51,391 bases of DNA from an uncultured Lachnoclostridium sp. (GTDB lineage: Bacteria > Bacillota > Clostridia > Lachnospirales > Lachnospiraceae), in assembly GCA_946402335.1 (NCBI GenBank), contig CAMIWE010000007.1, positions 1 to 51,391 on the forward strand. The letters run 5' to 3'. The notes beneath the pieces are model-generated. The model saw only the letters and a program-made list of their open reading frames with translations, ran no database searches and was not told the DNA's origin. Below, in pieces: positions 32,292-48,646 of this stretch. The position numbers and the translations under genes are program-made. How positions within the stretch are numbered: position 1 is the stretch's first letter; the number at the start of each line of letters is the position of its first letter.

Positions 32292-32367
32292 TTAATAACC
32301 TGCGGGACACAAATCGGCCTGCAGACAGTCAGACACGGTCCCCGAAGGACCGGGAATGGAGGAAAAT

Positions 32368-34344
32368 ATGAAGTATTGTAATCAGTGCGGAGCGCAGCTG
32401 GAAGACATCATGATGTTTTGCAACAAATGCGGCGCGAAGCAGGAAGTACCTGCGGCACCCGCTTCGCCTGCGGAAATACCTGCGGAAGCGGCGGCAAGCG
32501 TAGCGGCAGCGGAAGCAGCCGTGACGGAAACGGCTCAGGCAGCCGAGGCGGCTGTTACGGAGACCGCAGAAGCGGCAGAGACAGCGGTAACGGAAACCGC
32601 AGCGGCAGCGGAAACTGCAGTTACGGAGACGGCTCAGGCAGCAGAGACGGCAGTTACGGAGACGGCTCAGGCTGTGGAAACGGCAGCACCCGAACCGCTG
32701 ATGTTTTTCCCTTCGCAGAATCCTTCTTCGGACGGAACGGCTGCAGGGACAACCGAGCCGGTTAACCCGCCGAAAAAGTCTAAGAAGGGTCTTATCATCG
32801 GTATTATTGCGGCTGTTGCAGTAGTTGCAGCAGTAGTGATCGGTCTTCTGGTGATGAACGCCCTTAAGAAGGAGACGATTGACGCCTCCAAGCTTGTTAA
32901 GGTTACCGGCTACGGTCCGAACGGCTTCGGCAAGGGAGCGGTTATGGTAGCCAGCGAGAAGAAGATGCATGACGTATTCTGGCCCGAGGGTGAGGACGAG
33001 GAAGCTTTCCCCGGCCTTTGGGATTCCATGTATGAGCGGACGAAGGATGAGGAAACCTATCCGGAAGGCGTTCTTTCCTGGATTGAGCAGAACCGAAGCG
33101 ATTATTTCCGCGGCACGAAGGGCTTTAAGACGTTAAAGAACGAGGACAAGATTGACGAAGCCAAGGAAGCGCTTGCGAAGATCAAGGTTTCCATCGAGGA
33201 CGACGGCAAGAACGGTTCCTACAGCGTCGGCGATACGATTAAGATCATCGTAAAGGCCGATGAGGACGACCTGAAGAAGGCACATGTCAAGCTGACCAAT
33301 ACGACGTTTGAATATACCTTTACGGATGAAGATTTCGCACCCTGCAAGAAGATTGATCCGTTTGCGGGATTTACCTGCACCTTTGAAGGCTATGAGGGCA
33401 ATCCCGACATTAAATTCAGCTTTGATAACCTGGATCCCGATGTCAAGAAGATCATGTATCACTCCGTAAATTATGACGAGCTGTATGCGGCGAAGAACAA
33501 CGGAGACAAGATCACATTTACCGCATCTCCTTACGGGGACCTTTCCAAGGGATATCTCGTATGGGACGGCAGCTACTATACCTGCTCGGAAGCGGAACTG
33601 ACGAAGGTTGTTACCGTATCCGGACTGAAGGAACTTGTCGATTTGGATCTTTTTGAAGGAATCCGTTTCGAATTCGAAGGATGCGTACCGTCTCTCGGAC
33701 TTTCCGTTGATACCGGCGGAATGCCCCAGATCATTCAGGACAACAGCGATTACATCGACTATCGTCTGAGCCAGTCCTCAAGACTCGATGTCGGCGATGT
33801 CGTTACCGTTACGGCCCGCATATCCTATTCCGGACAGAAGGCTTTAGCCGAGGCCGGATACAAGTATGACGAGACGAAGATGACGATGGAATACACGATT
33901 CCGGCAAATGCCCCGCACATTCTTGACGGAAACCAGTCCGGTTTTGCATACGATCCGGCAAGCTTGTTCGGAATTAAGGAAATGATGGAAGCATGCATCG
34001 GACAGCCTTACCTTCCGGGAAATGTACCGATTAACGGAACCATCGGCGTAGTCGGCGACATCCGCTATTCCGCGAGAAAGCTTCTGATCAACCAGACCTC
34101 TTCCGGTAAAGTAACCAACGCGCTCTGGCAGCTTTGCGAGATTGATTACACCGTTATCACTGACGGAGTCGAAAGAGCGACGCAGGTTTACCTGATCTGC
34201 AAGGCGGATGACGCTTATGTGGACGAGAACAACAAGGTGGAGATCAGCGCTTCTTTCAACGGAATCTATTGTGAGACCATAGAAGCGGCACTTGAGGAAT
34301 TCCAGAACGGAGAGTCCAAAGCGGGTTCCGTGATTGATTTCTGA
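32368..34344 (+). CDS. Zinc-ribbon, repeat-linker membrane protein
   Basis: The 658-residue protein starts with a zinc ribbon (Cys4, Cys7, Cys18, Cys21), common in Clostridia membrane proteins. A Pro/Ala segment and five 11-residue repeats (50-104, AAVTETAQAAE-type) follow. One transmembrane helix spans about 141-164. An extracytoplasmic region of about 490 residues contains repeated beta domains (FTCTFEGYEG and IRFEFEGCVP look like parallel openings). GGAGG at 32358-32362 sets the start at 32368, since the ATG at 32356 overlaps that site. Function unknown; a surface sensor or envelope role is plausible. Confidence 0.75.
   Translation: MKYCNQCGAQLEDIMMFCNKCGAKQEVPAAPASPAEIPAEAAASVAAAEAAVTETAQAAEAAVTETAEAAETAVTETAAAAETAVTETAQAAETAVTETAQAVETAAPEPLMFFPSQNPSSDGTAAGTTEPVNPPKKSKKGLIIGIIAAVAVVAAVVIGLLVMNALKKETIDASKLVKVTGYGPNGFGKGAVMVASEKKMHDVFWPEGEDEEAFPGLWDSMYERTKDEETYPEGVLSWIEQNRSDYFRGTKGFKTLKNEDKIDEAKEALAKIKVSIEDDGKNGSYSVGDTIKIIVKADEDDLKKAHVKLTNTTFEYTFTDEDFAPCKKIDPFAGFTCTFEGYEGNPDIKFSFDNLDPDVKKIMYHSVNYDELYAAKNNGDKITFTASPYGDLSKGYLVWDGSYYTCSEAELTKVVTVSGLKELVDLDLFEGIRFEFEGCVPSLGLSVDTGGMPQIIQDNSDYIDYRLSQSSRLDVGDVVTVTARISYSGQKALAEAGYKYDETKMTMEYTIPANAPHILDGNQSGFAYDPASLFGIKEMMEACIGQPYLPGNVPINGTIGVVGDIRYSARKLLINQTSSGKVTNALWQLCEIDYTVITDGVERATQVYLICKADDAYVDENNKVEISASFNGIYCETIEAALEEFQNGESKAGSVIDF
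32515..32679 (+). repeat. Five tandem 33-bp repeats encoding 11-residue units
   Basis: Units AAVTETAQAAE, AAVTETAEAAE, TAVTETAAAAE, TAVTETAQAAE and TAVTETAQAVE follow without gaps. DNA identity is high but synonymous differences exist, so the array is not newly amplified. An 11-residue period suits a long helix. Confidence 0.9.
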
Positions 34345-34507: not shown

Positions 34508-34536
34508 TTGACATAAAGACTCGGAAACTGTATAAT
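34508..34536 (+). promoter_or_regulatory. Consensus promoter for isomerase-like gene
   Basis: TTGACA (34508-34513), 17 bases, TATAAT (34531-34536), both perfect. Transcription would start near 34543, about 54 bases before the coding region. Confidence 0.92.
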
Positions 34537-34596
34537 GAGAGCAGTATGGGTGTATCCCCAAAAACTATATACTCAAGAAAGGTATGGTATTACGTG

Positions 34597-36078
34597 ATGG
34601 CTATGACTAATATTCCTGTTGTGAAACTCGGAATCATCGCAGTAAGCCGTGACTGCTTCCCGATCGAGCTTTCTAAAAAGCGTCGTGATGCAATCGCTGC
34701 AGCTTACAAGGGCGACCTTTATGTTTGCCCCGTTATGGTAGAAAATGAGAAGGATATGCTTTCGGCAGTTGCAGACGTAAAGGCTGCAGAGTGTAACGCA
34801 CTCGTTGTATTTCTCGGAAACTTCGGTCCCGAGACCCCCGAGACCCTGATTGCTAAGAATTTTGACGGACCCTGCATGTTCGTTGCAGCAGCAGAGGGCG
34901 ACGGCGACATGATCAACGGCCGTGGCGATGCATACTGCGGTATGCTGAACTGCTCTTATAACCTCGGAATGCGCCACCTGAAGGGCTATATTCCGGAGTA
35001 TCCGGTTGGAACCGCTGACGATATCGCTAAGATGATCGGCGAGTTCGTTCCGATCGCACGCGCTATCATCGGTGTTAAGAACCTTAAGATTATTACCTTC
35101 GGTCCCAGACCGCAGGATTTCTTCGCTTGTAACGCTCCCATTAAGGGCCTGTACGAGCTTGGTGTTGAGATCGAAGAGAACTCCGAGCTTGACCTGTTCG
35201 TAGCTTACAAGGCACATGCTAACGATCCCCGTATCCCGGCTGTCTGCGAAGACATGGCTAAGGAGATGGGCGAAGGCAAGTATTATCCTGAGATGAATGC
35301 CCGTATGGCACAGTTCGAGCTTACGCTTCTTGACTGGGCTGAGGCTCACAAGGGTTCCCGCAAGTATGTTGCATTTGCCGACAAGTGCTGGCCTGCATTC
35401 CCCGAGACCTTCGGTTTCGAGCCTTGCTACGTTAACAGCCGTCTCGCAAGCCGCGGTATCCCGGTATCCTGCGAAGTAGATATCTACGGCGCTCTGTCCG
35501 AGTACATCGGCGCTTGCGTATCTCAGGATGCAGTAACGCTTCTTGATATCAACAACTCCGTTCCGCAGTACATTTACGATGAGGACATCAAGGGTAAGGT
35601 TGACTACAAACTTACCGATACCTTCATGGGCTTCCATTGCGGCAACACCCCGTCCTGCAAGATGTGCAGCGACCGTGCGATCAAGTATCAGCTCATCCAG
35701 CACCGTCTGCTTGAGCCCGCCGGCAGCGATCCCGATTTCACCCGCGGAACGCTCGAGGGCGACATCGCAGCAGGCGACATCACCTTCTATCGTCTGCAGT
35801 GCAACAGCGACGGTGAGCTTGTTTCCTACATCGCTGAGGGCGAGATCCTCGACGTACCGACCCGTTCCTTCGGCGGTATCGCTATCTTCGCCATCAAGGA
35901 GATGGGACGCTTCTATCGTCACGTTCTCATCCAGAAGAGATATCCTCACCATGGTGCCGTTGCTTTCGGTCACTACGGAAAGGCCCTCTTCGAAGTATTC
36001 AAGTTCCTCGGAATCAAGGACATCGCTTACAATCAGCCGAAGTCCCTTCCTTATCCGACCGAGAATCCTTGGGCATAA
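34597..36078 (+). CDS. L-fucose/L-arabinose isomerase family protein
   Basis: The 493-residue protein belongs to the fucose/arabinose isomerase fold, which interconverts aldoses and ketoses at a metal site. Visible blocks are VVFLGNFGPETPE, the FADKCWPAFPETFGFEPCYVNSR segment (quoted in part: CWPAFPETFGF), CEVDIYGALSEYI and FMGFHCGNTPSCKM. I cannot assign the sugar. The ATG at 34597 (or GTG at 34594) has AGAAAGG 11-14 bases upstream; the in-frame ATG at 34546 is at the transcript start. Codons are much more biased (GCT, GTT, CGT, ACC) than in neighbouring genes, implying very high expression. Confidence 0.82.
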   Translation: MAMTNIPVVKLGIIAVSRDCFPIELSKKRRDAIAAAYKGDLYVCPVMVENEKDMLSAVADVKAAECNALVVFLGNFGPETPETLIAKNFDGPCMFVAAAEGDGDMINGRGDAYCGMLNCSYNLGMRHLKGYIPEYPVGTADDIAKMIGEFVPIARAIIGVKNLKIITFGPRPQDFFACNAPIKGLYELGVEIEENSELDLFVAYKAHANDPRIPAVCEDMAKEMGEGKYYPEMNARMAQFELTLLDWAEAHKGSRKYVAFADKCWPAFPETFGFEPCYVNSRLASRGIPVSCEVDIYGALSEYIGACVSQDAVTLLDINNSVPQYIYDEDIKGKVDYKLTDTFMGFHCGNTPSCKMCSDRAIKYQLIQHRLLEPAGSDPDFTRGTLEGDIAAGDITFYRLQCNSDGELVSYIAEGEILDVPTRSFGGIAIFAIKEMGRFYRHVLIQKRYPHHGAVAFGHYGKALFEVFKFLGIKDIAYNQPKSLPYPTENPWA

Positions 36079-36096: not shown

Positions 36097-36127
36097 AGAG
36101 GCTCCGCATATTGCGGGGCCTCTTTTT
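36097..36127 (+). terminator. Terminator after isomerase-like gene
   Basis: GAGGCTCCGCA (36098-36108) pairs with TGCGGGGCCTC (36112-36122), one G-T pair, loop TAT, followed by TTTTT. Confidence 0.92.
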
Positions 36128-36201: not shown

Positions 36202-36298
36202 TTAATATGTATGAGTATGCGTATGGACCGTCCGAAGGGCTTCTTTTTTCGGGCATTGTACGCAGAAAAGGAATAATGAGTTTGAGGTGTTTGTCCGG

Positions 36299-37081
36299 AT
36301 GAAGGCTTTTTTAAGTCGTATTCCTTTAATGATTTCGCTGTCGCAGAACGATTTTAAGAGCAAATATGCCAGTTCCCAGCTGGGAATCCTGTGGGCATTT
36401 GCCAAACCCGTCGTTCAGGCTTGCGTATATATCTTCGTTTTTACGATCATCGCACGTGCGGCTCCGGTGGACAATATCTATCCGTATGCGTTTTGGCTTC
36501 TGCCGGGAATGATCTGCTGGTTTTTCTTCTCCGATGCGGTAATGTCGGGAGGAAACGCCTTGCTCGAGTACTCGTATCTTGTCAAGAAAGTCAAGTTCGA
36601 GATTGACATTCTCCCGATGGTCAAAGTCATCTCGTCCGGAATCGTGCATGTATTCTTTGTCATGTTCGTGCTGTTTTTGTATTTGCTTTGGGGACTACCC
36701 CTCTGCCTTACAATGCTGCAGATTCCCTATTATATGTTCTGCACGTTCTTCGTTGCGCATGCCTTTGCAAGACTGAACTGTGCACTGGTTCCCTTCTTCC
36801 GGGATTTCTCCCAGATTCTTGAAATCCTCCTCATGGTTTTAATGTGGGCATGTCCGGTTATGTGGGACATTTCCATGATGCCGAAGGGAATCGCGTGGGT
36901 TTTCAAACTGAATCCGCTTTATTATTTGATTGACGGATACCGCCAATCGTTTATGAACGGAAAATGGTTCTTTGAAAGCCCGCTAATGACGGTTTATTTC
37001 TGGGCATTTGCCCTCCTTGCCGCATTCCTGTCGAAGAAGCTCTTTTCACGACTTCGGGTACATTTTGCGGATATTCTTTAA
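36299..37081 (+). CDS. ABC-2 polysaccharide export permease (Wzm/TagG-like)
   Basis: The 260-residue membrane protein has six predicted helices and the ABC-2 start pattern SQNDFKSKYASSQLGILWAFAKP, of which QLGILWAF is typical for Wzm, RfbA and TagG permeases. It would form the channel that carries a lipid-linked glycan across the membrane. Hydrophobic segments lie at about 29-51, 60-80, 108-130, 135-160, 168-190 and 228-250. I choose ATG at 36299 with GAGGTG at 36284-36289; a GTG four codons upstream lies inside that site. The ATPase gene follows by 63 bases. Confidence 0.92.
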   Translation: MKAFLSRIPLMISLSQNDFKSKYASSQLGILWAFAKPVVQACVYIFVFTIIARAAPVDNIYPYAFWLLPGMICWFFFSDAVMSGGNALLEYSYLVKKVKFEIDILPMVKVISSGIVHVFFVMFVLFLYLLWGLPLCLTMLQIPYYMFCTFFVAHAFARLNCALVPFFRDFSQILEILLMVLMWACPVMWDISMMPKGIAWVFKLNPLYYLIDGYRQSFMNGKWFFESPLMTVYFWAFALLAAFLSKKLFSRLRVHFADIL

Positions 37082-37144: not shown

Positions 37145-38434
37145 ATGGATAATGTAGTTGTCGATGTACAACATATCAATAAAGTTTACAACACATATGA
37201 ACGGGAGATTGATCGTTTCCGCGAAGCCATCTCCTTTCGCCAGAAGAACCTCCACGGCCGTTTTACGGCGCTCGATGACGTCAGTTTTCAGGTTCGCAAA
37301 GGAGAATGCTTCGGAATCATCGGAACGAACGGTTCCGGCAAGTCAACGCTTCTGAAGATCATCACCGGCGTGCTTCAGCCTACGGGCGGAACGGTCACCA
37401 CGGACGGTAAGATCAGCGCCTTATTGGAGCTTGGTGCCGGATTTAACGGCGACTATACCGGAATCGAGAACATCATCTTAAACGGAAAAATCATGGGATT
37501 TTCCGAAGAGGAGATGAAATCCCGCATCCCGATGATTGCGGAATTTGCAGAAATCGGGGATTTTATCAACATGCCTGTAAAGATTTATTCGAGCGGTATG
37601 TTCGCGCGTCTGGCATTTGCCGTAGCGATCAACGTATCTCCGGACATTCTGATCATCGACGAGGCTTTGAGCGTCGGAGATATCTTTTTCCAGACGAAAT
37701 GCTACCGCAAATTTGACGAATTCCGCGAGCAGGGGAAGACAATTCTGTTTGTTTCACATGACCTCGGCAGCGTGATCAAGTACTGCAACCGGTGCATGCT
37801 GTTGCACCACGGAAAGCAGATCGCGGTCGGAGACTGCAAGGAAACGGTTGACATATACCGAAAGATTCTCGTCAACCAGTACGATGAGGATAACGGCCTG
37901 AAACAGGCCAAAGAGGAAGAAACGAAGATTGAGGAGCCGGTACACACCGGAGCGCTCTGGAAGGAATCGGTTCTTCAGAATCCGAATTATGTGGAATACG
38001 GCGACCAGAGCATTATCATCGAAGATTTCGGAATCATCAACAAGGACGGAGAAATCTCCAGCATGCTGATGAAAGGCGACGATTATACGGTTGCCGTAAG
38101 ATTCCGCATGAACAAGGCCGTTCAGGACCCGATCTTCGCATTTACCGTCAAGGATCCGAAGGGAACGGAACTTTGCGGAACCAATACGATGTTAGAGGGA
38201 CAGACGCTTGAGAAGACGCACGATGGCATGACCGGCGTCGTAAAATTCAAACAGCGGATGCTTTTGCAGGGTGGACAGTATTTTCTCTCGCTTGGGGTAA
38301 CGAGTTATGCGGGAGAGGAGCTGGTTGTGCACCACAGACTTTACGATATCTGTCATATTCAGGTTCTTTCGGATTATAACACAATCGGGGTATATGACGT
38401 AGAGTCTAAGATTCAATACGAAGGTGTGAAATAA
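37145..38434 (+). CDS. Polysaccharide ABC transporter ATPase with C-terminal glycan-binding domain (Wzt-like)
   Basis: The 429-residue protein has an ATPase domain at 1-245: Walker A GTNGSGKS (60-67), signature YSSGMFA (148-154), Walker B ILIIDE (168-173) and His205. A charged linker (246-268) leads to a roughly 160-residue domain resembling the Wzt C-terminal carbohydrate-binding jelly roll, including AFTVKDPKGTELCGTNT and QGGQYFLSLGV. In systems of the O9a type this domain recognises the modified non-reducing end of the finished glycan. Its presence implies terminal modification, which the next gene could provide. Confidence 0.93.
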   Translation: MDNVVVDVQHINKVYNTYEREIDRFREAISFRQKNLHGRFTALDDVSFQVRKGECFGIIGTNGSGKSTLLKIITGVLQPTGGTVTTDGKISALLELGAGFNGDYTGIENIILNGKIMGFSEEEMKSRIPMIAEFAEIGDFINMPVKIYSSGMFARLAFAVAINVSPDILIIDEALSVGDIFFQTKCYRKFDEFREQGKTILFVSHDLGSVIKYCNRCMLLHHGKQIAVGDCKETVDIYRKILVNQYDEDNGLKQAKEEETKIEEPVHTGALWKESVLQNPNYVEYGDQSIIIEDFGIINKDGEISSMLMKGDDYTVAVRFRMNKAVQDPIFAFTVKDPKGTELCGTNTMLEGQTLEKTHDGMTGVVKFKQRMLLQGGQYFLSLGVTSYAGEELVVHHRLYDICHIQVLSDYNTIGVYDVESKIQYEGVK

Positions 38435-38445
38435 GGGGATTTTTC

Positions 38446-40758
38446 ATGCAGGAAATGATAGGCAAGGTTCGTTTGAACCTGAATTGGTATAACGGGGAAG
38501 ACCGCTATTCGGACGGCGACGCCACGGAGAATGAACTTCTTTCGATTGTCGAAAAATCGCAGAAGGATTATAACGACATCATTGCAGAAAGAGGCAGCTG
38601 GCCGGTTCTGTATCATCTTTCTCCAATCCGCGAGAATATAGTTAACTGGTATCCGTTTCGAAAAGGCGCCAGAGTGCTGGAACTCGGATCGGGCTGCGGC
38701 GCGGTGACCGGAGCACTTCTTTCGGCGGGACTTGACGTCTGTGCCGTAGACTTGTCGTTGAGACGGAGCCGGATCAATGCAACAAGGCATCAAGGCAGCG
38801 ACAGGCTTGAGATTATCGTCGGGGCGATGGAAGAGGTACTTTCGAACCTTCATGAGCAGTTTGATTATGTCCTTTTGATCGGTGTGCTGGAATACGCAGC
38901 AGTGTTCTCCGATTCCGGGAATCCTTATGCGGCAGTGCTTACGGCGGTCAAAAAGGTTTTGAAAAGCGATGGAGAGGTACTCGTCGCAATTGAGAATAAG
39001 CTCGGATTGAAATACCTTGCAGGCTGCAGGGAAGACCATACGGGCCGGTTCTTTGAAAGCATCGAAGGCTATCCCCATGCGGACGGACCGAAGACCTTCA
39101 GCCGTTCGGAGCTGCAAACTCTGGCGGAAGCATGCGGTTATGAGAGCGAGTTTTATTATCCGTATCCGGATTACAAATTCCCGCTCCGGATATACTCCGA
39201 TGCGTTTCTGCCGGGGCAGGGGGAATGGAACCGCAACTGGCAGAATTTCGATGCTGACCGCGTGGTGTTGTTTAATGAGCAGCGGGCAGCGGACACGCTG
39301 CTGTCGGCGGGTCTGATAAAGGAATTCGCCAATTCGTTTCTGGTAAGGCTTTTCGCAAAAGGAAGCGCACGGGATACGTCTGTGATCTATGCGAAAATGT
39401 CGACCGAACGGAAGCCGGAATACCGTCAGTCCACAATCATTTGTAAAAACGGCGGGGAATACTCGGTAAGAAAAATCCCTGCCTCAAAGGATGCATCCGG
39501 ACACCTTCTTAAGATGACGGAATCCTATAAAGACATTACGTCGCGTATTCACGAAGGATGCGGCGTGAGTCTCGCGCCGTGTAAGCTTTCTAAGGACGGG
39601 TCCGTTGAATTTGAATACCAAAAGACCGGCACGTTAAGCGACCGCCTTTCGGAAACGGATGACGCGGAGCATTTTCTTGCTCTTTTGAAACGGTTTTACG
39701 AAGCGCTTGAAAAGGCCTACGGAACGATGCCGTTTACAATAAGCGAAGGATTCCGGGAACTGTTCGGGGAACAGGAACTGCCGGACGGGTTTACCGCCCT
39801 TAAGGTAACGGATCTTGACCTCAATTATGACAACGTGTTTATCAAGGAAGACGGAACCTACCGGATCACGGATTACGAATGGGTATTCCCATTTGCCGTA
39901 CCGCTTCCGTTTTTGATCTACCGGGCATTGCTCGTGAACCCTCGAATGGCTGCATTTTCGTCTGCGGACCGTGACCGGATCTATAAGGAATTCGGAATTG
40001 ACGCAGATCTTCGCGACCGTTTCTTCGCGATGGAATTACGGTTCCAGGAGTATGTATCCGGTAAGAACAATAAACTTGAAGAGTTTAGAAACAGTGAGAT
40101 TCCGAAGCAGCCTTTAAGTCTTGATGAAATGATTGCGGCCGGGAAGGAGCTTCGCAGGCTTTCCGGTGACCTGGAAGAATACCGCGGCGCGTACGACACC
40201 CAGTCCGTTGCCTACCGAAAGATCGAAAGCGAACGAGATGAATATCGCGATGCGTATGACCGACAGGTAAAAGCCGTAAACGAGCTTGAACGGCAGCGGG
40301 ACGAATACCATGAGGCTTACGACCGCCAGGCGGAAGCAGTACAGGAACTGAATCGTCAGCGTGATGAATACCATCGGGCTTACGACGAACAGGTGAAGGC
40401 CGCAAACGAACTCGAGCGTCAACGCGATGAATACCGGGATGCCTATGATAAGCAGGTTGCGGCGTGCGGAGAGCTTGAACGGCAGAGAGACGAATACCGA
40501 ACGGCCTATGACAATCAGACGCAGGCTTCGGATGAACTCGGTCGTCAGCGCGACGAGTATCACAATGCTTATGATGAACAGGTAAAGGCCGCAAATGAAC
40601 TCGAACGACAACGTGACGAGTACAGGACGGGGTATGATGAGGCTATGAAGCGTGCGCTTCAGGCAGAAGAGGCACTCGCCGCAAAGAGTGCGGAATTCGA
40701 AGCCTATGTGGAAGCGCATAAGCATTGGTGGAATAAGAAACGAAAGAAGAACGATTGA
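38446..40758 (+). CDS. WbdD-like methyltransferase-kinase with repeat coiled coil
   Basis: The 770-residue protein has three parts. Residues ~60-250 form a class I methyltransferase (LELGSGCGAV 78-87; VLLIGVLEY; ENKLGLKY 183-190). Residues ~275-545 look like a kinase fold: VRK at 341-343, TDLDLNYDNVF with Asp458 and Asn463 in a D-x4-N loop, and ITDYEW with Asp476 in the DFG position. Residues ~571-738 are eight 21-residue repeats predicted to form a coiled coil, and the C-terminus HKHWWNKKRKKND is aromatic and basic, fit for membrane or partner contact. This order matches WbdD of E. coli O9a, which caps the glycan and measures its length. It lies 11 bases after wzt. Confidence 0.82.
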   Translation: MQEMIGKVRLNLNWYNGEDRYSDGDATENELLSIVEKSQKDYNDIIAERGSWPVLYHLSPIRENIVNWYPFRKGARVLELGSGCGAVTGALLSAGLDVCAVDLSLRRSRINATRHQGSDRLEIIVGAMEEVLSNLHEQFDYVLLIGVLEYAAVFSDSGNPYAAVLTAVKKVLKSDGEVLVAIENKLGLKYLAGCREDHTGRFFESIEGYPHADGPKTFSRSELQTLAEACGYESEFYYPYPDYKFPLRIYSDAFLPGQGEWNRNWQNFDADRVVLFNEQRAADTLLSAGLIKEFANSFLVRLFAKGSARDTSVIYAKMSTERKPEYRQSTIICKNGGEYSVRKIPASKDASGHLLKMTESYKDITSRIHEGCGVSLAPCKLSKDGSVEFEYQKTGTLSDRLSETDDAEHFLALLKRFYEALEKAYGTMPFTISEGFRELFGEQELPDGFTALKVTDLDLNYDNVFIKEDGTYRITDYEWVFPFAVPLPFLIYRALLVNPRMAAFSSADRDRIYKEFGIDADLRDRFFAMELRFQEYVSGKNNKLEEFRNSEIPKQPLSLDEMIAAGKELRRLSGDLEEYRGAYDTQSVAYRKIESERDEYRDAYDRQVKAVNELERQRDEYHEAYDRQAEAVQELNRQRDEYHRAYDEQVKAANELERQRDEYRDAYDKQVAACGELERQRDEYRTAYDNQTQASDELGRQRDEYHNAYDEQVKAANELERQRDEYRTGYDEAMKRALQAEEALAAKSAEFEAYVEAHKHWWNKKRKKND
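40156..40659 (+). repeat. Eight tandem 63-bp units encoding 21-residue coiled-coil repeats
   Basis: Units start at 40156 (degenerate), 40219, 40282, 40345, 40408, 40471, 40534 and 40597. The consensus is ELERQRDEY, two to three variable residues, then AYD and Q, three heptads per unit. Units at 40345 and 40534 share the unusual ending YDEQVKAAN, suggesting duplication of sub-blocks. Synonymous differences between units show the array is maintained by selection. Confidence 0.95.
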
Positions 40759-40759
40759 A

Positions 40760-42985
40760 GTGGATGTAACAATTTGTATTCCCACAAAAAACGGCGGGGA
40801 ACAGCTGGATCAGGTACTTAGCGCAATATTCCGGCAGAAGACCGATCTCGAATATGAAGTAATCTGCGTGGATTCGGGATCGGTGGACGGTACGCTCGAA
40901 GTAATCCGCAAGTATCCGCAGGTTAAACTGCACCAGATTCCTGCGGAATGGTTCGGGCACGGGATTACGAGAAACCTCGGCGCCTCTTTGGGAACGGGAG
41001 AATTCATTTATTTTCTGACGCAGGACGCACTTCCCGCGTCGGATGAGATGCTCGATCAGATGATCAAAGCGATACGCCGCGATCCGAAATGTGTGCTCGG
41101 ATTCGGAATTCATTATCCGTATCCGGACTGCAATCTTTTGGATGAGCGCGATTTGACGAATCATTTCAAAGGGTTCGGCATCGACAATACGTATTACTGG
41201 ATCAAGGATCCCGAACGGTATGAGAGAGAGGAAGGGTATCGCCATCTGCTCGCATTTTCCTCGGATAACAATGCATGCTTGAGACGTTCCGTCTTTGAGA
41301 AGTATCCGTACCCGGCGGTGGAATTTGCCGAAGACCAGGTGTGGACGAAACAGATGATGGAACTCGGTTACCACAAGGTGTTCTGCCCGTACGCGCCGGT
41401 GTACCATTCGCACAATTATCCGCTGAAACAGTATTCCAAGCGGTATTTCGACGAATACAAGGGACTAAGAGAGCTTCACGGATACCGGATCGTTCCGGCC
41501 GCGAGGAAGATTCCGCGGGCAACACTTGCACTGATAAAGAGCGATCTTAAGTACATAAAGAGCACGAAGCTCTCGTTTTTCAAAAAGGTTTATTGGGCCA
41601 ATTACGCAATCCGCCGTGATACCAAGAGACATGTTTTCGGGTATCTCGGAGGCAAATACGCGGATTGCCCTCCGGACATGCAGGAATTGATGGATGAGCT
41701 GTTCTCCCAGCAATACCAGCAAAGGAACCGAAAGAACAAGAAGGAGAAAAAGCATATGCTGAAAAAGTACTGGGCTTTTTTCAAGAAAGGGATTCGTTAT
41801 CTGAAGCAGAATCACGGTGTCCCGGATTCTATCGTTCAGGAGATGAACGCACCGTCTCAGGTACATGTGGAGAAGGTGTTCGGATTTACCATCGACCGGG
41901 ATACCTTCCCGTTTAAGGAAAAGGAATACAAGGCTGCACAGGACGGTCCGATTATTCTGAACTGGGTGATTCCGGAGATGGGAAAGGGTTCCGGCGGCCA
42001 CATCAATATATTCCGTTTTGTTTCCGGTCTTCAGAAGAAGGGAATAAGAAACCGGATTTATGTGGAAACTCCGGTGAATTTCAACTCGGATAAGGAACTC
42101 CGGAACTTCCTTCAGGAGAATTATCCGATTCTGGATCCGGAAATCGAGGTGTATTTTTCGACGGACGGTATGGATTTCTGTCATGGTATCGTTGCGACTT
42201 CCTGGTCGACTGCATATTATGTGAGACGGTTTGAAAACACAATTTCCAAATTCTATTTTGTTCAGGATTACGAGTCGTATTTCTTCGCGGTCGGTTCCGA
42301 GGCGATGCTTTCGGAAAATACGTACCGTTTCGGTTTCCGCGGCCTGACTGCCGGAGACTGGCTTAAAAACAAACTGGAGAAAGAGTTTGGCATGAAATGC
42401 GACAGCTTCCGGTTCTCGTATGACCGGGATATCTATCATCCGATTGAGAAGCGTGATGATAAGAAACGTCTGTTTTTCTATGCGCGACCGGTAACACCGA
42501 GACGCGGATTTGAGCTCGGAATGCTTGCGTTGATGGAATTGTACCGCAGGATTCCCGAGATTGAGGTCATATTTGCCGGATGGGATGTCGGAAACTATTA
42601 TATTCCGTTCGTACATCTGAATGCGGGAAGCGTTCCGTTAGATCAGCTTGCGGATCTGTATGCGCAGTGCGATATCTGCCTGATCATGTCGTTAACCAAC
42701 CTTTCGCTTCTCCCGCTTGAAGTAATGGCTTCCAATTCCGTTGTGGCAACGCAGGGAACCGAGAACAACTCCTGGCTGATTGACGAATCCAATTCCATCG
42801 TCATCGATTCGGATCCGGTTCATATCGCGGACAAACTCGAATATTATCTGAACCATAAAGATGAACTGGCAAATCTCCGCAAGAAGGGACTGGAGTGCGC
42901 AGCCGCGACCGATTGGAGCACGGAGATTGACAAGGTTTATAAGAGTATTACAGAAGGAATCAAAGAGGATGAACAAAAGCGGTAA
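40760..42985 (+). CDS. Bifunctional glycosyltransferase: GT2 plus WsaF-like domain
   Basis: The 741-residue protein joins two glycosyltransferases. Residues ~1-250 are GT2 (VTICIPTKNGG, CVDSGSVDGT, FLTQDALP, and AEDQVW as catalytic Asp region). A Lys/Arg-rich linker ends near 335. Residues ~360-735 resemble WsaF-type rhamnosyltransferases (VIPEMGKGSGGHINIFRF, FVQDYESYFF, LPLEVMASNSVVA). The GTG at 40760 is one base after the previous stop; no strong ribosome site is seen, so coupled translation is likely. An internal ATG at 41756 has AAGGAG at 41741-41746, so a separate second-domain product is possible. Linkages are unknown. Confidence 0.87.
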   Translation: MDVTICIPTKNGGEQLDQVLSAIFRQKTDLEYEVICVDSGSVDGTLEVIRKYPQVKLHQIPAEWFGHGITRNLGASLGTGEFIYFLTQDALPASDEMLDQMIKAIRRDPKCVLGFGIHYPYPDCNLLDERDLTNHFKGFGIDNTYYWIKDPERYEREEGYRHLLAFSSDNNACLRRSVFEKYPYPAVEFAEDQVWTKQMMELGYHKVFCPYAPVYHSHNYPLKQYSKRYFDEYKGLRELHGYRIVPAARKIPRATLALIKSDLKYIKSTKLSFFKKVYWANYAIRRDTKRHVFGYLGGKYADCPPDMQELMDELFSQQYQQRNRKNKKEKKHMLKKYWAFFKKGIRYLKQNHGVPDSIVQEMNAPSQVHVEKVFGFTIDRDTFPFKEKEYKAAQDGPIILNWVIPEMGKGSGGHINIFRFVSGLQKKGIRNRIYVETPVNFNSDKELRNFLQENYPILDPEIEVYFSTDGMDFCHGIVATSWSTAYYVRRFENTISKFYFVQDYESYFFAVGSEAMLSENTYRFGFRGLTAGDWLKNKLEKEFGMKCDSFRFSYDRDIYHPIEKRDDKKRLFFYARPVTPRRGFELGMLALMELYRRIPEIEVIFAGWDVGNYYIPFVHLNAGSVPLDQLADLYAQCDICLIMSLTNLSLLPLEVMASNSVVATQGTENNSWLIDESNSIVIDSDPVHIADKLEYYLNHKDELANLRKKGLECAAATDWSTEIDKVYKSITEGIKEDEQKR

Positions 42986-43883
42986 CATCATGATACTCGG
43001 CGGGAACGGGTTTATCGGACAGAATCTGACGCAGTATTTCCATACGAACGGATACTCAGTCTCGGTATTTGACCTGAAGGCTCCGGACAATCCGATCGAA
43101 GGCGTGCATTATCTCGAAGGAGATTTTTTCGATGATACCAATCTCGACCGGATCACGGAAGGGCAGGATACGATTATCCATGCCCTGACCACGATCAATC
43201 CGAGCAATTCGAATGCGAGTTATATGCGCGGATACTCGAAGGATTTCGTGCAGACCATGAAATTGTTCGATAAGTTGACGGAGACAAAGGGCAAGCTGTT
43301 GTTCTTCTCTTCGGCAGGAACGATTTACGGCAGATACGAAGAAGGCCGTCCTTTTGTGGAGAACGACCGGCTTCGTCCGATTAATCATTACGGGAGCATT
43401 AAACTCTGCATTGAAACTGCCATGCGGGCATTTAACGTGCAGCAGCATACGCATCTGATGGCATGCAGGGTTTCCAATCCATACGGACCCGGTCAGGACT
43501 ACCGGAAGGGAGTCGGATTTATCGATGCCGTAGTAAAAGCGATCATGAACGATACAACCGTGGAAGTATGGGGAGACGGAAGCATTATCCGCGATTACAT
43601 ATACATCGAAGACCTCTGCCGCATGTTAGAGGGATTGGTGCACTATGATGGGGACCTTCAGACCTTCAATATTTCCACAGGAATCGGCACGTCCCAGAAT
43701 GAGATCATCGAATTGTTCCGGCGCCTCGGTTTCAACGTGAAGGTAAACTATCTCGATGCAAGAACGGTTGATGCCAAATGCAACATCGTCAGCAACGACA
43801 AGATCGTCGGTGTGACCGGTGTGCAGTGCCGCTCTTTGGAAGAGGGCATAAAAGCGTATCTACGCTATTTGAATATGATTTGA
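42969..43883 (+). CDS. NAD-dependent sugar epimerase/dehydratase
   Basis: The 304-residue extended short-chain dehydrogenase has GGNGFIGQNL as nucleotide-binding motif, FFSSAGTIYG, and the catalytic Tyr-Lys pair in NHYGSIK. It resembles UDP-glucose 4-epimerase-like enzymes, but the substrate could be another nucleotide sugar. The ATG at 42969 overlaps the end of the glycosyltransferase gene by 17 bases, with AAGGA at 42954-42958. It probably supplies an activated sugar for the glycan. Confidence 0.87.
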   Translation: MNKSGNIMILGGNGFIGQNLTQYFHTNGYSVSVFDLKAPDNPIEGVHYLEGDFFDDTNLDRITEGQDTIIHALTTINPSNSNASYMRGYSKDFVQTMKLFDKLTETKGKLLFFSSAGTIYGRYEEGRPFVENDRLRPINHYGSIKLCIETAMRAFNVQQHTHLMACRVSNPYGPGQDYRKGVGFIDAVVKAIMNDTTVEVWGDGSIIRDYIYIEDLCRMLEGLVHYDGDLQTFNISTGIGTSQNEIIELFRRLGFNVKVNYLDARTVDAKCNIVSNDKIVGVTGVQCRSLEEGIKAYLRYLNMI

Positions 43884-43899
43884 CGGGAGCGTGGATCTT

Positions 43900-46800
43900 T
43901 TGAACGTATTTCGATCACATAAAAAGTTTTGGATTGGGGTGATAATCGTATTATCACTCTATATCTTTGCGTATTTTTTCGGGAAAAATGTGGTTGCTCC
44001 CCGCAGAAATGCAAGCGGAAAGCAGACACCCGGAAATACGCAGCAGACGGCGGTGCTGAAAGACGGTCAGTCTGCTCCTATACAGCCGCTTTGTGTAGGG
44101 GAATCTGCATCCAACGAGCAGTTGCCCAAGTTCGGATATGCTGAATTGGAAGACTTAAACGGTCTTGAAACGCGTATTTCCGAATGGAAAGAGGAAGGAA
44201 TCAGCAGTCTTCTGATTCCTGTCGCCTGGTCTCTGACGGAACAATCGGAGGGCGTTATTTCTTTGGACCGTTACGAGACGGCGCTTGACCGGCTGCAGAA
44301 AGAAGGCTTTCGTTTTATTCTGATCCTGGATGCAGGCGGACGGGCGATCAATGTTTCCGGTTTGGAAGCAAAGAGTTCTATCCCCGCATGGGTGTTCCGA
44401 AAGGTCAGTCCTTCGCTTGACTGTTACGGAAAATGCGTGGGAGCGGAAGGATCGCTCAGTTATTCCGACGAGGCAGGCAGCGAACTTCTCGTAAATTATG
44501 TAAAGCGGGTTGTACCGGAACTGAAAGCCCGCTATGAAACATCCATCATCGCATTTGCCCCCGCCGTTACCCCGGACCTTACGGTTGCTTATCCGGAGGC
44601 GGAAGAGGCCTGGTTTGATTATTCCGAGAACGCGGAGAACCGCTTCCGCGCATTCCTTCGCGACAAATATGACACCATCGAAGCTTTGAATGAGGCATGC
44701 AGCTGCAGTTATGTCAGCTTTGCGCAGATTACGCTTCCCACCGGTATGCTTTCCGCGAACAGTATTGCGAACGGCGTGTTGAACGAGGCAGCGGTTTATC
44801 CGGATTTCCAGCTGTTCCGCGAAGAGGAACTGAAGGTTTTTCTGAAGCCGGTTTATCAGGCGATCAAGGCTGAAGGATATCAGACGGCGGCGCGATTCGG
44901 CTGTGTTCTGTCCGTTGACGACGGAAAGACTGCGGCGGGTATCGCTTTAAAGCTTTCGGATTCCGTAGATTTTGCGATTGTGGAAGTAACGGTTTCGGAT
45001 ACCGTTCTTCCGGCCATGACGGCCAACTGTCTGAAAACGGCAGGATATCAAAAGGTCTATCTGCAGGCAGATCTGAATGCGGTTGATTCGCAGCAGCTTA
45101 CGGAAGCACTTGATTACGCTTCTGCAGACGGAAGTCTTGACGGGATTGTGCTCAACCGGTGCGGAGACCGGATTAAGTGTTCGCGGAAATCACATGCTCA
45201 GGCTGACTATGCGATCTATGTGGGCGAATGGAACTTCTACCGAAGCCAAGGCGAAGCGGAGACGCATACGGCCTATTTTTCGGACAGCATATCACAGATG
45301 TATAAGATTGTTTGCTTCGAACTCGGCCGCAATGTTGCTATCGTATCCGATGAAGCAATTCAATCCGGAAGACTCGGACAATACAGCGTGCTGATCATTC
45401 CCGCCCAGTTTTATGTATCTGATGAAACGGTTGCCGCAATAGAGCAGTTTGCAAAGAACGGCGGAGCGTTGCTTCAGGATTACCGGTTCGGGGAATGGGA
45501 TATGTACGGAAAGAATCGCGGGAACTGGAGCGATGAATTGTTCGGGATCGCTGCCAGGAACGCACTGATCTCCGAGAAGGAACTGGTCGGAAGTAATTCC
45601 GCAGTCGCGGGAATGAAGCTTTCCGTGGACCCGGTTTATAGGAATGTTCCGAATCTTTTCGAAATAGCCGTTACGGGCGATGCAAAGGCGTTGTTTACGG
45701 ACAGCGAGGGTCATACCTATGGCGTGATTCAGGGCAATAACGCATGCCTTTGCTTCCAGCCGCAGCTGCAGTACAAATATGAAAGCGATCTTGAAAACCG
45801 CCGGCTTTGTGTGGAGCTGATCCGTTTGCTTCTTGAGCAGATTCGTCCGGAGACGGCCGTTTTTTTTGAGCCGGAGCATTCGGTCGTCGTTTCGGAGGAA
45901 CAACCGGTCACGCTTTTTCTGAGTGATATTCAGTATGTTGATCTTGACAGCACAATTCCGGTACTTAAGGAAAGCAACGTCAATACATTGACCATTCCGT
46001 TGCCGTGGACATTCCTTGAGAGTAGTAAAGGAGCTTTTTCCCCGGAGTTGTATGTTGAACCGCTGAATCGTCTCGCGGAGGAAGGTTTTCAATTTATTTT
46101 TATCTTGGACGGAAGCGGAAGGGATATTCCGCTTAACGGAGTTGTCCTTGATCAGTCTGTTCCCGCTTGGGTATATGAAGAAGCAGTACCTGCGATGGAT
46201 TTTACGGGTTCTACACGGAACGGACGTGCTCCGCTCAGCTTTTTTTATGAGCAGAACAAGGCATTATATCTGGATTTCTGCGAAAAGACCATTGAATGTT
46301 TCGGCGCGTTGTACGGCGATCGGATTGTCGGATTTGCACCTGGGATTGCACCGGAACTGGAAGTGAAATATCCTCAATGGAATTACAACTGGTATGATTA
46401 TTCCGAGGGCGCGAAGAAAGCGTTTCGGGAATTTCTGTGCGAAAAATACGACGATGTTGAGGTGATAAACGACATCTACGGCACAAAGTTTAAGTCTTTC
46501 GATGAAGCGGACATGCCGCTTGTGAATTACAACAACAGCATCCGCACTTCTCTACGTGAGGCACCTTTGTTTAATGATTTTTTAGTGTTTCGAGAGCGGT
46601 CCGTGGTCAAATATATAAGTCCGGTTTGCGACCTGATTCATGAGGAAGGATATCAGACCATAGCGTATTTCGGTCAGCTTTTCCATCCGCATGATGCCAT
46701 TTACGCGGCAGGACTTGTTTCTTCTCTTTCGGAGTGCATTGATACTGCCGTGATTGACTTCAATTACTATGACGGTTATCATCTGATTTCCGACAGTATT

Positions 46801-47691
46801 ATTCCTGCCATGCTTACGAATTATGTAAAAGCAATCGGATATGGAAATGTCTGGACCGGAATCTACTGCGAACGGCTGGATTTAAATCTGTCGACTGGAT
46901 TATTGCAGGAATCCGTCAATTATGCGGCGCAAGACGGACGAAGCGACGGATTCGAATTCGGCGGAATGGTTGATCAGGTACGGGAAGGTTCCTTCAGCAT
47001 GGATTTGTCTTTTCGGGTAACGCAGAGAAACGAATCGGCGAGAATCGCAATTTATGTGTCCGAGTGGAACTTTTATCATGACCATGGAGAAACTCCGCCG
47101 CATGTAGATTATCTGCTTGATTCCCTGTCCCAGATGTATCAGATTGTCCGTTTTGAACTCGGCTACGAGGTAGACATTATCGGAGACGAGGCAATTGGTT
47201 CCGACCGTATCAGGCAGTATGATTTGCTGATTATACCCGCGCAGTTGTGTCTGGGGGAAGAATCCGCAGAGGCGATTGTGGAATATGTTAAAAACGGCGG
47301 GCGGGTTCTCCAAGATTTTCGGCTCGGAGAATTGGATGAGTATGGAGAAGTAAATTCGTTCCCGGTTGACAGTCTGTTTCATATAACCGGAAAGGAATCT
47401 CTTGTGTTAGACGGAACCTTAAAGGGTAATGCGGATTTTCTTTCGGGAATCACCATTCCGGTCACGCCGCTGTTTGAGCATGTGCCGAATGCTTATGCCG
47501 TTGCGGGAGAACCGGATGTGACTTATCTGTTTCAAACGGACGACGGTCGATACTTCGGAACAAAAGCCGGAAGAACCTGCAGCATCGGATTTCAGCCGCA
47601 GCTGCACTACAAGTATTCGGATGATGAGAATGTTAAGAAAGCCTGTGTCACAGTGCTGAAAAATATAATTGACCGCATGCTGTCGGAATAA
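43900..47691 (+). CDS. Membrane-anchored protein with two tandem GH42-like modules
   Basis: The 1263-residue protein has an N-terminal membrane helix (about 10-29) and a short spacer. Two homologous modules of about 580 residues follow, at about nt 44125-45850 and 45900-47688. Each has a TIM-barrel-like part and a part like the GH42 trimerisation domain (AIYVGEWNFYRSQGE in module 1, AIYVSEWNFYHDHGE in module 2; LIIPAQFYVSDE and LIIPAQLCLGEE). At the position expected for the acid/base, module 2 has APELEV and module 1 has TPDLTV, so activity may differ. I prefer TTG at 43900 with GGGAG at 43885-43889; GTG at 43891 lies too close to that site. It could trim or bind the glycan outside the cell. 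Confidence 0.78.
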   Translation: MNVFRSHKKFWIGVIIVLSLYIFAYFFGKNVVAPRRNASGKQTPGNTQQTAVLKDGQSAPIQPLCVGESASNEQLPKFGYAELEDLNGLETRISEWKEEGISSLLIPVAWSLTEQSEGVISLDRYETALDRLQKEGFRFILILDAGGRAINVSGLEAKSSIPAWVFRKVSPSLDCYGKCVGAEGSLSYSDEAGSELLVNYVKRVVPELKARYETSIIAFAPAVTPDLTVAYPEAEEAWFDYSENAENRFRAFLRDKYDTIEALNEACSCSYVSFAQITLPTGMLSANSIANGVLNEAAVYPDFQLFREEELKVFLKPVYQAIKAEGYQTAARFGCVLSVDDGKTAAGIALKLSDSVDFAIVEVTVSDTVLPAMTANCLKTAGYQKVYLQADLNAVDSQQLTEALDYASADGSLDGIVLNRCGDRIKCSRKSHAQADYAIYVGEWNFYRSQGEAETHTAYFSDSISQMYKIVCFELGRNVAIVSDEAIQSGRLGQYSVLIIPAQFYVSDETVAAIEQFAKNGGALLQDYRFGEWDMYGKNRGNWSDELFGIAARNALISEKELVGSNSAVAGMKLSVDPVYRNVPNLFEIAVTGDAKALFTDSEGHTYGVIQGNNACLCFQPQLQYKYESDLENRRLCVELIRLLLEQIRPETAVFFEPEHSVVVSEEQPVTLFLSDIQYVDLDSTIPVLKESNVNTLTIPLPWTFLESSKGAFSPELYVEPLNRLAEEGFQFIFILDGSGRDIPLNGVVLDQSVPAWVYEEAVPAMDFTGSTRNGRAPLSFFYEQNKALYLDFCEKTIECFGALYGDRIVGFAPGIAPELEVKYPQWNYNWYDYSEGAKKAFREFLCEKYDDVEVINDIYGTKFKSFDEADMPLVNYNNSIRTSLREAPLFNDFLVFRERSVVKYISPVCDLIHEEGYQTIAYFGQLFHPHDAIYAAGLVSSLSECIDTAVIDFNYYDGYHLISDSIIPAMLTNYVKAIGYGNVWTGIYCERLDLNLSTGLLQESVNYAAQDGRSDGFEFGGMVDQVREGSFSMDLSFRVTQRNESARIAIYVSEWNFYHDHGETPPHVDYLLDSLSQMYQIVRFELGYEVDIIGDEAIGSDRIRQYDLLIIPAQLCLGEESAEAIVEYVKNGGRVLQDFRLGELDEYGEVNSFPVDSLFHITGKESLVLDGTLKGNADFLSGITIPVTPLFEHVPNAYAVAGEPDVTYLFQTDDGRYFGTKAGRTCSIGFQPQLHYKYSDDENVKKACVTVLKNIIDRMLSE

Positions 47692-47731: not shown

Positions 47732-48646
47732 ATGAAAGTTTTGGTAACCGGTGTCTGCGGACAGCTCGGACATGACGTGATCAATGAATTGGCAAAACGC
47801 GGTTATACGGGAATCGGTTCGGATATTCAGCCTGAATATGCAGGTGTTGCCGACGGTTCGGCCGTAACGACGGCTCCCTATGTACGGATGGATATTACGG
47901 ATGAGGAAGCGGTTCTTGCAACGATCAAAGAGGCCCGTCCGGATGTAATCGTTCACTGTGCGGCTTGGACGGCAGTGGATGCAGCCGAGGATGAGGAGAA
48001 TCAGGACAAGGTATTCCGGATCAACGCAAAGGGAACGGAATTCATCGCAAAGGCTGCAAAGGAAATCGACGCTAAGATGGTTTACATTTCAACGGACTAC
48101 GTATTTGACGGACAGGGAGTCCGTCCCTGGGAGCCCGATGACAAATGCTACGCGCCTTTGAACGTTTACGGACAGACGAAACTTAAAGGCGAGCTTGCGG
48201 TATCCTCCATCCTTGAGAAGTATTTCATCGTCCGGATTGCATGGGTATTCGGCTTAAACGGCAAGAACTTCATTAAGACCATGATCAATGTCGGCAAGAC
48301 GCATGACACGGTAAGGGTTGTTAACGACCAGATCGGAACCCCGACCTATACGCTGGATCTTGCCCGTTTGCTGGTTGATATGATCGAAACGGACAAATAC
48401 GGCTATTATCACGCTACCAACGAGGGCGGTTACATCAGCTGGTACGAATTCTGTAAGGAATTCTACCGTCAGTACGGCCTGTCCACCAACGTGATTCCGG
48501 TAACGACGGCGGAGTACGGCCTTTCCAAGGCGGCCCGTCCGTTCAATTCAAGACTGGATAAGTCGAAGCTTACAAAGATGGGATTTGTCCCGCTTCCGAC
48601 CTGGCAGGATGCCGTAGCAAGATATTTGAAGGAAGCAAACATTTAA
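47732..48646 (+). CDS. rfbD: dTDP-4-dehydrorhamnose reductase
   Basis: The 304-residue reductase completes dTDP-L-rhamnose synthesis with NAD(P)H. It shows VLVTGVCGQLGHD at the N-terminus, HCAAWTAVDAAEDE, YISTDYVFDG, PLNVYGQTKLKGE with catalytic Tyr and Lys, and RIAWVFG, all typical of RfbD/RmlD. GGAGG lies ten bases before the ATG. The rfbA, rfbB and rfbC genes are not in the window, so they must be elsewhere. It supports rhamnose as a component of the glycan made by the upstream genes. Confidence 0.93.
   Translation: MKVLVTGVCGQLGHDVINELAKRGYTGIGSDIQPEYAGVADGSAVTTAPYVRMDITDEEAVLATIKEARPDVIVHCAAWTAVDAAEDEENQDKVFRINAKGTEFIAKAAKEIDAKMVYISTDYVFDGQGVRPWEPDDKCYAPLNVYGQTKLKGELAVSSILEKYFIVRIAWVFGLNGKNFIKTMINVGKTHDTVRVVNDQIGTPTYTLDLARLLVDMIETDKYGYYHATNEGGYISWYEFCKEFYRQYGLSTNVIPVTTAEYGLSKAARPFNSRLDKSKLTKMGFVPLPTWQDAVARYLKEANI

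Follow-up and report, generated by a model that had tools for sequence, protein, structure and literature searches.

A methyltransferase-kinase protein with a 21-residue repeat coil in a Lachnoclostridium glycan export locus: a candidate chain terminator probably related to the Klebsiella O7 enzyme

Gene content of the locus

The window, that is, the whole stretch of 51,391 nucleotides from an uncultured Lachnoclostridium species, a Gram-positive gut bacterium, that was analyzed here, contains a gene for a 770-residue protein (P0001; 38446..40758) in which a methyltransferase, a kinase and a repeat-built coil are joined; this and the other window genes described below lie on the forward strand. 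The gene is located directly downstream of the genes for the two components of an ABC exporter and upstream of a gene for a two-module glycosyltransferase. The exporter consists of a Wzm-like permease (ABC2_membrane; 36287..37081; PF01061, 3.7e-20), which is found in the same place, with 97% and 95% identity, in the loci L031 and L032 of two sister species, and a Wzt-like ATPase (37145..38434; PF00005, 1.3e-21) with a C-terminal glycan-binding domain (Wzt_C; PF14524, 1.8e-38, residues 283-419).

The two-module glycosyltransferase (40760..42985) is the candidate polymerase of the locus and combines a GT2 module (PF00535, 3.6e-21) with a WsaF-like GT-B module (PF22772 WsaF_C, 3.6e-15). The profile matches fall on 40718-42982 and the mechanical open reading frame starts at 40652; the GTG start, 1 nt past the stop codon of the upstream gene, was placed by eye. 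The signature PHPSYPPLE reported for WsaF (in the available part of PMC3898925) is not conserved in the WsaF-like module of the window, which reads TNLSLLPLE at this place. The GT2 module is 96-97% identical to its counterparts in the sister species and the WsaF-like module only 74-75%, which suggests either different selection on the two modules or exchange of one of them.

Further downstream, the window encodes an NAD-dependent epimerase/dehydratase (42861..43883 as the open reading frame is listed, with the true start probably further in; PF01370, 1.6e-35), a 1266-aa GH42/GH14-like protein whose N-terminal part includes a hydrophobic stretch (43891-47691), and the dTDP-4-dehydrorhamnose reductase RmlD (47732..48646; TIGR01214, 289.4 bits against a cut-off of 224.05), the last of which hints at rhamnose in the glycan. 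The GH42/GH14-like protein has an apparent internal tandem duplication with two GH42 stretches, and its counterparts in L031 (13392-15365, 657 aa) and L032 (7885-9840, 651 aa) are about half as long. Since one PF02397 priming transferase and two LytR-CpsA-Psr proteins are encoded elsewhere in the same genome (G000), priming of the glycan and its attachment to the wall are possible. Overall, the genomic setting of Wzm, Wzt with a Wzt_C domain, and glycosyltransferases fits a predicted chain-capping enzyme.

Several other features were observed in the window. A protein similar to Fucose_iso_C and sulfoquinovose isomerases (34546-36078; PF02952, 1.3e-27) is preceded by a perfect TTGACA-17-TATAAT site (34508-34536) and followed by a 12-pair hairpin (36097-36123). 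A second repeat-built stretch, Ala-rich and with a 33-bp period (32505-32686), lies within a zinc-ribbon protein (32356-34344). A GH115-type glycosyl hydrolase of 992 aa is encoded at 26422-29400 (PF15979, 3.1e-119), and a T-box leader on the forward strand (6-249; RF00230, 94.5 bits, just over the 93-bit threshold) precedes a PLP-dependent enzyme (379-1749).

Domains and catalytic residues

The protein begins with a class I methyltransferase domain (residues 1-270, 38446..39255), which is followed by a kinase domain of the aminoglycoside/choline kinase-like fold (about residues 289-549, 39310..40092), eight 21-residue units of 63 bp each (residues 577-744, 40174..40677), and the end of the helix with an aromatic and basic tail (residues 745-770, 40678..40755; HWWNKKRKKND). 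The kinase contains the motif D458-x4-N463 together with K343, D476 and E478, and its catalytic residues are kept in 60-61 of 61 relatives. The preliminary description of this DNA had proposed exactly this order of a methyltransferase, a kinase-like domain with D458-x4-N463 and Asp476, eight repeats and an aromatic/basic tail within one protein, and our analysis confirms it; a kinase fold in residues 275-545, on which that description had made its reading depend, is present both in the predicted structure and in the Foldseek comparison. When the kinase model was compared alone, the best Foldseek matches were aminoglycoside kinases.

In the predicted structure, residues 597-769 form the helix of the rod, and repeat unit 1 is modeled with low confidence. 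Between the last part of the kinase (helix 544-549) and the rod the model has only short helices, and no beta domain of the Ig-like CBM type precedes the coil. No glycosyltransferase match was found in the protein, either by domain profile searches or in the predicted structure. With a hydrophobic moment that does not exceed 0.29, the C-terminal helix is only weakly amphipathic. A tail with at least six Lys or Arg and at least one aromatic residue among the last 25 is present in 29 of 41 freely ending relatives, and a stricter net-charge test is satisfied by 23 of them; 16 further open reading frames cut by the end of the locus and five long ones were left out of this count.

The repeat array

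The start positions of the eight units run from residue 577 to residue 724 at intervals of exactly 21 residues. Units 2-7 have 13-20 of 21 residues in common, and the first and last units are degenerate. Identity at lag 21 reaches 0.61 in the array compared with at most 0.228 in 2000 shuffles. A hydrophobicity period of 3.5, corresponding to the heptad, is sharp in all three array-bearing orthologues and was reached by 0, 1 and 0 of 500 shuffles, respectively. Each unit has a computed length of 3.15 nm, and the whole rod measures about 26 nm.

The size of the array differs between the sister species, with eight units in the window, seven in L031 (genome G008) and eight in L032 (genome G017). 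The L031 orthologue is shorter by exactly 63 bp, in frame, corresponding to one unit. Thus, the change in copy number that had been anticipated from the window alone exists as a real one-unit difference between species, and the step of about 3 nm estimated for it is borne out by the computed value. With three array-bearing genomes at hand, the copy-number change is represented by one clear indel.

In the comparison of the window with L032, units 1, 3 and 8 each have a single partner (identical at 52, 53 and 57 of 63 bases), whereas the best matches of units 2 and 4-7 reach only 41-49 of 63 bases and are not always found at the same position. Because these units match so poorly although the kinase DNA of the two genomes is 82.5% identical, we read this as probable turnover of the inner units. 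Near-identical repeat DNA, as expected of a hypervariable array, was not found among the window units, which are identical to each other at 21-49 of 63 bases and thus give no sign of slippage within a species; with unit DNAs so different, collapse of the array during assembly is unlikely. Unit 5 of L031, compared with window units 5 and 6 as a possible clean hybrid, shows no clear breakpoint: of its 24 informative sites 12 follow unit 5, five follow unit 6 and seven follow neither.

We then have the question of how widely such arrays occur. Among 62 open reading frames of relatives with a kinase match, 58 have a tail of at least 60 residues. Identity values of 0.70-0.75, at lag 21 or 42, were obtained only for the L031 and L032 tails; the next-best signal is 0.32 at lag 7, and the remaining 56 tails have no such repeat. 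Among the tails tested, the array was therefore seen only in one clade of three sister species.

Relatives and their gene organization

The gene family is common in Lachnospiraceae, being present in 155 of 397 genomes of the family, the own genome included (query residues 281-770, E 1e-10 or better), and in three of 22 genomes of the genus, again with the own one. When 398 genomes from across the phylum were searched with a kinase profile, nine had a match at E 1e-6, and four of these nine, including the own genome, belong to the same family. In an initial search of 99 relatives, 33 genomes had matches at E 0.001, many of them weak and limited to the methyltransferase.

The methyltransferase and kinase are encoded by one open reading frame in 24 of 62 loci and by two in 36, and the other two loci have the kinase only; the methyltransferases of two of the 62, L039 and L054, are identical, and these are probably the same locus counted twice. 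In the midpoint-rooted methyltransferase tree of 61 rows, the three array-bearing proteins form one group (100/99), with L033 as their neighbor (96/90). In L033 (8828-11563), the kinase, a short segment and a domain labeled GT2-like from reading the sequence by eye are fused in one open reading frame, and the methyltransferase is a separate frame before it. Since L033 lies next to the repeat clade and yet is split and fused differently, this one branch has seen modules separated or fused.

Genes for Wzm and a full-length Wzt (425-443 residues aligned) are located upstream in 12 of 16 genome-contig loci, directly in ten of them and, in L034 and L035, at a distance of about 3 kb; they were not seen in the other four (L036, L042, L044 and the 3-kb locus L045).

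Probable kinship to the Klebsiella O7 terminator

A protein search of a plasmid collection identified two relatives, in Pseudomonas asturiensis (P0002) and Citrobacter braakii (P0003), and in both of these proteobacterial loci the permease and ATPase genes (Wzm and Wzt) are located directly upstream. P0002 aligns with the window protein at 37% over 364 columns (E 5e-59, residues 21-368, which take in the methyltransferase and the first part of the kinase), and P0003 at 28% over 552 columns (E 7e-40, residues 21-540). Both are also matched by kinase profile A3 (probability 96.5, E 8.6e-10 and 94.4, E 9.4e-8, respectively). P0002 is a protein of 1457 aa with two GT2 matches in its C-terminal part. 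The Citrobacter gene (L078:8923-10872) is located on plasmid pF217-3, typed as conjugative, where it belongs to an ABC-transporter glycan cluster that also contains genes for dTDP-rhamnose. At the DNA level, this gene had no match in E. coli genomes.

According to the available part of PMC11231755, the SAM pocket of the Klebsiella ORF6-O7 terminator contains Y28, Y66, G91, G93, E112 and Y158, and D441 is the kinase base; the enzyme, whose reaction is phosphorylation and methylation at O3 of the terminal sugar, phosphorylated and partly methylated a mimic of the glycan end, and the D441A variant gave no product. All six pocket residues occur in P0002 at identical numbers, and its D-x4-N motif is at 443-448, compared with D441 in the O7 enzyme. 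The aligned residues of the window protein are Y21, Y56, G81, G83, D102 (Asp in place of E112) and Y150, and the catalytic Asp of the kinase is aligned between the window protein and P0002 as well. By proxy of the Pseudomonas protein, the nearest characterized relative thus appears to be the O7 terminator. As these pocket residues align via P0002, and A3 matches both plasmid proteins, we file the window protein, by proxy, as a probable Bacillota branch of the O7-type terminators, which would be WbdD-like only in its possible way of working.

As far as PMC11231755 was available, the N-terminal part of ORF6-O7 has the same composition as the window protein, namely a methyltransferase, an unannotated kinase similar to aminoglycoside kinases, and a coiled coil; in the window protein, too, the kinase has an AmiN-like fold with the catalytic Asp, and the coil lies past it. 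The pocket residues and the ABC exporter genes upstream in the relatives are further points of likeness. The two differ in that the coil of ORF6-O7 is preceded by an Ig-like CBM and followed by two GT2 modules, all of them absent from the window protein, and in that the window coil is a 21-residue repeat array in a Gram-positive host. The CBM was not counted as defining, because in the part of that paper at hand the O7 orthologues are described by the methyltransferase, the unannotated domain and the coil and not by the CBM. These orthologues include proteins of alpha- and gammaproteobacteria and cyanobacteria, and the main text of PMC11231755 contains none of the words 'Gram-positive', 'Firmicutes' and 'Bacillota'.

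Comparison with WbdD and other capping enzymes

The preliminary description had called the protein WbdD-like. In its favor, the order of methyltransferase, kinase, long coil and short C-terminal part is that of WbdD from E. coli O9a, which serves as an analogy for both capping and the ruler (PMC3482155 and PMC5082667, in the parts available), and WbdD structures occupy ranks 1-4 and 15 in the Foldseek comparison of the whole model (4azt best, E 3.6e-12). However, the TM-scores of the first four are 0.18-0.20 by query and 0.30-0.32 by target, with an rmsd of 16-21 A, from which we infer that the domain order of the model is common with WbdD and the spatial arrangement is not. No sequence kinship was detected: WbdD was matched among PDB sequences neither by phmmer with the window protein (22 matches, E up to 10) nor by kinase profile A2 (two matches, E up to 10), and was not among the best 60 of 152 matches of profile A1. 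With the kinase alone, which seems closer to aminoglycoside kinases, WbdD was not among the best 50 Foldseek matches listed. The likeness to WbdD therefore holds for the domain order and the leading structural matches, and in kinship the O7-type enzymes are favored.

In the O9a system, the cap is reported to be recognized by Wzt_C (PMC3482155, in its available part), and, according to the accessible sections of the review PMC5082667, the WbdD rod is about 20 nm long and insertions into the coil give a higher, truncations a lower modal chain length. WbdD is a trimer held together by its coil, and its C-terminal part, with a membrane-associated helix described as amphipathic, has a part in polymerase recruitment; the C-terminal helix of the window protein is only weakly amphipathic. 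A tandem-repeat coil in WbdD is not mentioned in the available parts of these two sources.

Two other systems deserve comparison, each as described in the accessible part of its source. WsaE of Geobacillus stearothermophilus (PMC2943079) represents a Gram-positive terminal methyl cap combined with Wzm/Wzt export, its methyltransferase domain being thought to cap the glycan end, and a WsaF-like module occurs in the glycosyltransferase adjoining the window gene. WsaE, however, unites a methyltransferase with two glycosyltransferase domains and forms a 2-O-methyl cap, and the word 'coiled-coil' is absent from the available text on it; the window protein is free of glycosyltransferase domains. WbbB of K. 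pneumoniae O12 (PMC11231755) likewise has a coil ruler with a terminator and a polymerase, but there a glycosyltransferase acts as the terminator, and a single chain contains all modules. The earlier statement that no example is known in Lachnospiraceae stands in so far as none was found in the literature searched (titles and abstracts), and should be read beside the frequency of the gene family there and the capping already described for WsaE.

Possible mechanism and alternatives

The above analysis suggests, with a probability of about 0.6, that the protein is a capping kinase-methyltransferase of the O7 ORF6-N type acting on an ABC-exported surface glycan, with a rod that spaces the catalytic domains so as to set a minimum chain length. 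The kinase would phosphorylate the non-reducing end of the lipid-linked chain and the methyltransferase would methylate the terminal phosphate, stopping growth, after which the glycan-binding domain of Wzt would recognize the capped end for export. The protein may oligomerize and contact the membrane, and the long helix of 21-residue units would keep the methyltransferase and the kinase a fixed distance away from both membrane and polymerase, such that a chain would have to reach a minimum length before it could be capped. Gain or loss of one unit would shift this distance by about 3 nm with the heptad phase undisturbed. Against this explanation we count the 56 of 58 relatives' tails without the repeat, the split of methyltransferase and kinase in 36 of 62 loci, the four of 16 loci without Wzm and full-length Wzt, the weakly amphipathic C-terminal helix, the small number of array-bearing genomes (three), the use of a proxy protein for the kinship to ORF6-O7, and the low-confidence unit 1.

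In a somewhat unlikely alternative, the capping enzyme is the same and its coil is only a scaffold for oligomerization and recruitment; the repeat number would be neutral, and chain length would depend on the ratio of capping enzyme to polymerase or on something else. Turnover of some inner units between the window and L032, with clear orthology preserved in units 1, 3 and 8, is what a change-tolerant region would display, most of the relatives' tails tested are free of the repeat, and the array length is equal, at eight units, in two of three species. On the other hand, the only observed difference in length amounts to one complete 21-residue unit and leaves the heptad phase intact, and the glycan length altered by changes in the WbdD coil (PMC5082667, available part) speaks for a ruler. 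It is improbable that the kinase-methyltransferase instead decorates side positions of the glycan or modifies another surface molecule: the fold is common to small-molecule kinases and the sequence does not reveal the substrate, but the exporter genes upstream in 12 of 16 loci, the long coil and the kinship by proxy to a proven terminator all speak against it. That the protein is a true WbdD orthologue is very improbable despite the domain order and the top-ranking structural matches, given that the whole model does not superpose as one body, that the kinase matches are headed by aminoglycoside kinases, and that O7-type relatives, not WbdD, are matched by sequence.

If the rod of this proposed O7-type capping enzyme is a ruler, it might, as a tentative extension, also be an evolvable one: in this genus, and thus in a Gram-positive envelope, recombination between the 63-bp repeats would insert or delete complete three-heptad units and so retune the glycan length between sister species in fixed increments of about 3 nm. 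Coil-ruler capping enzymes have been worked out in Gram-negative O antigens, and the same logic would here operate across a Gram-positive family. With natural seven-unit and eight-unit versions of one enzyme, the relation of rod length to chain length becomes a question that may be asked with unmodified orthologues.
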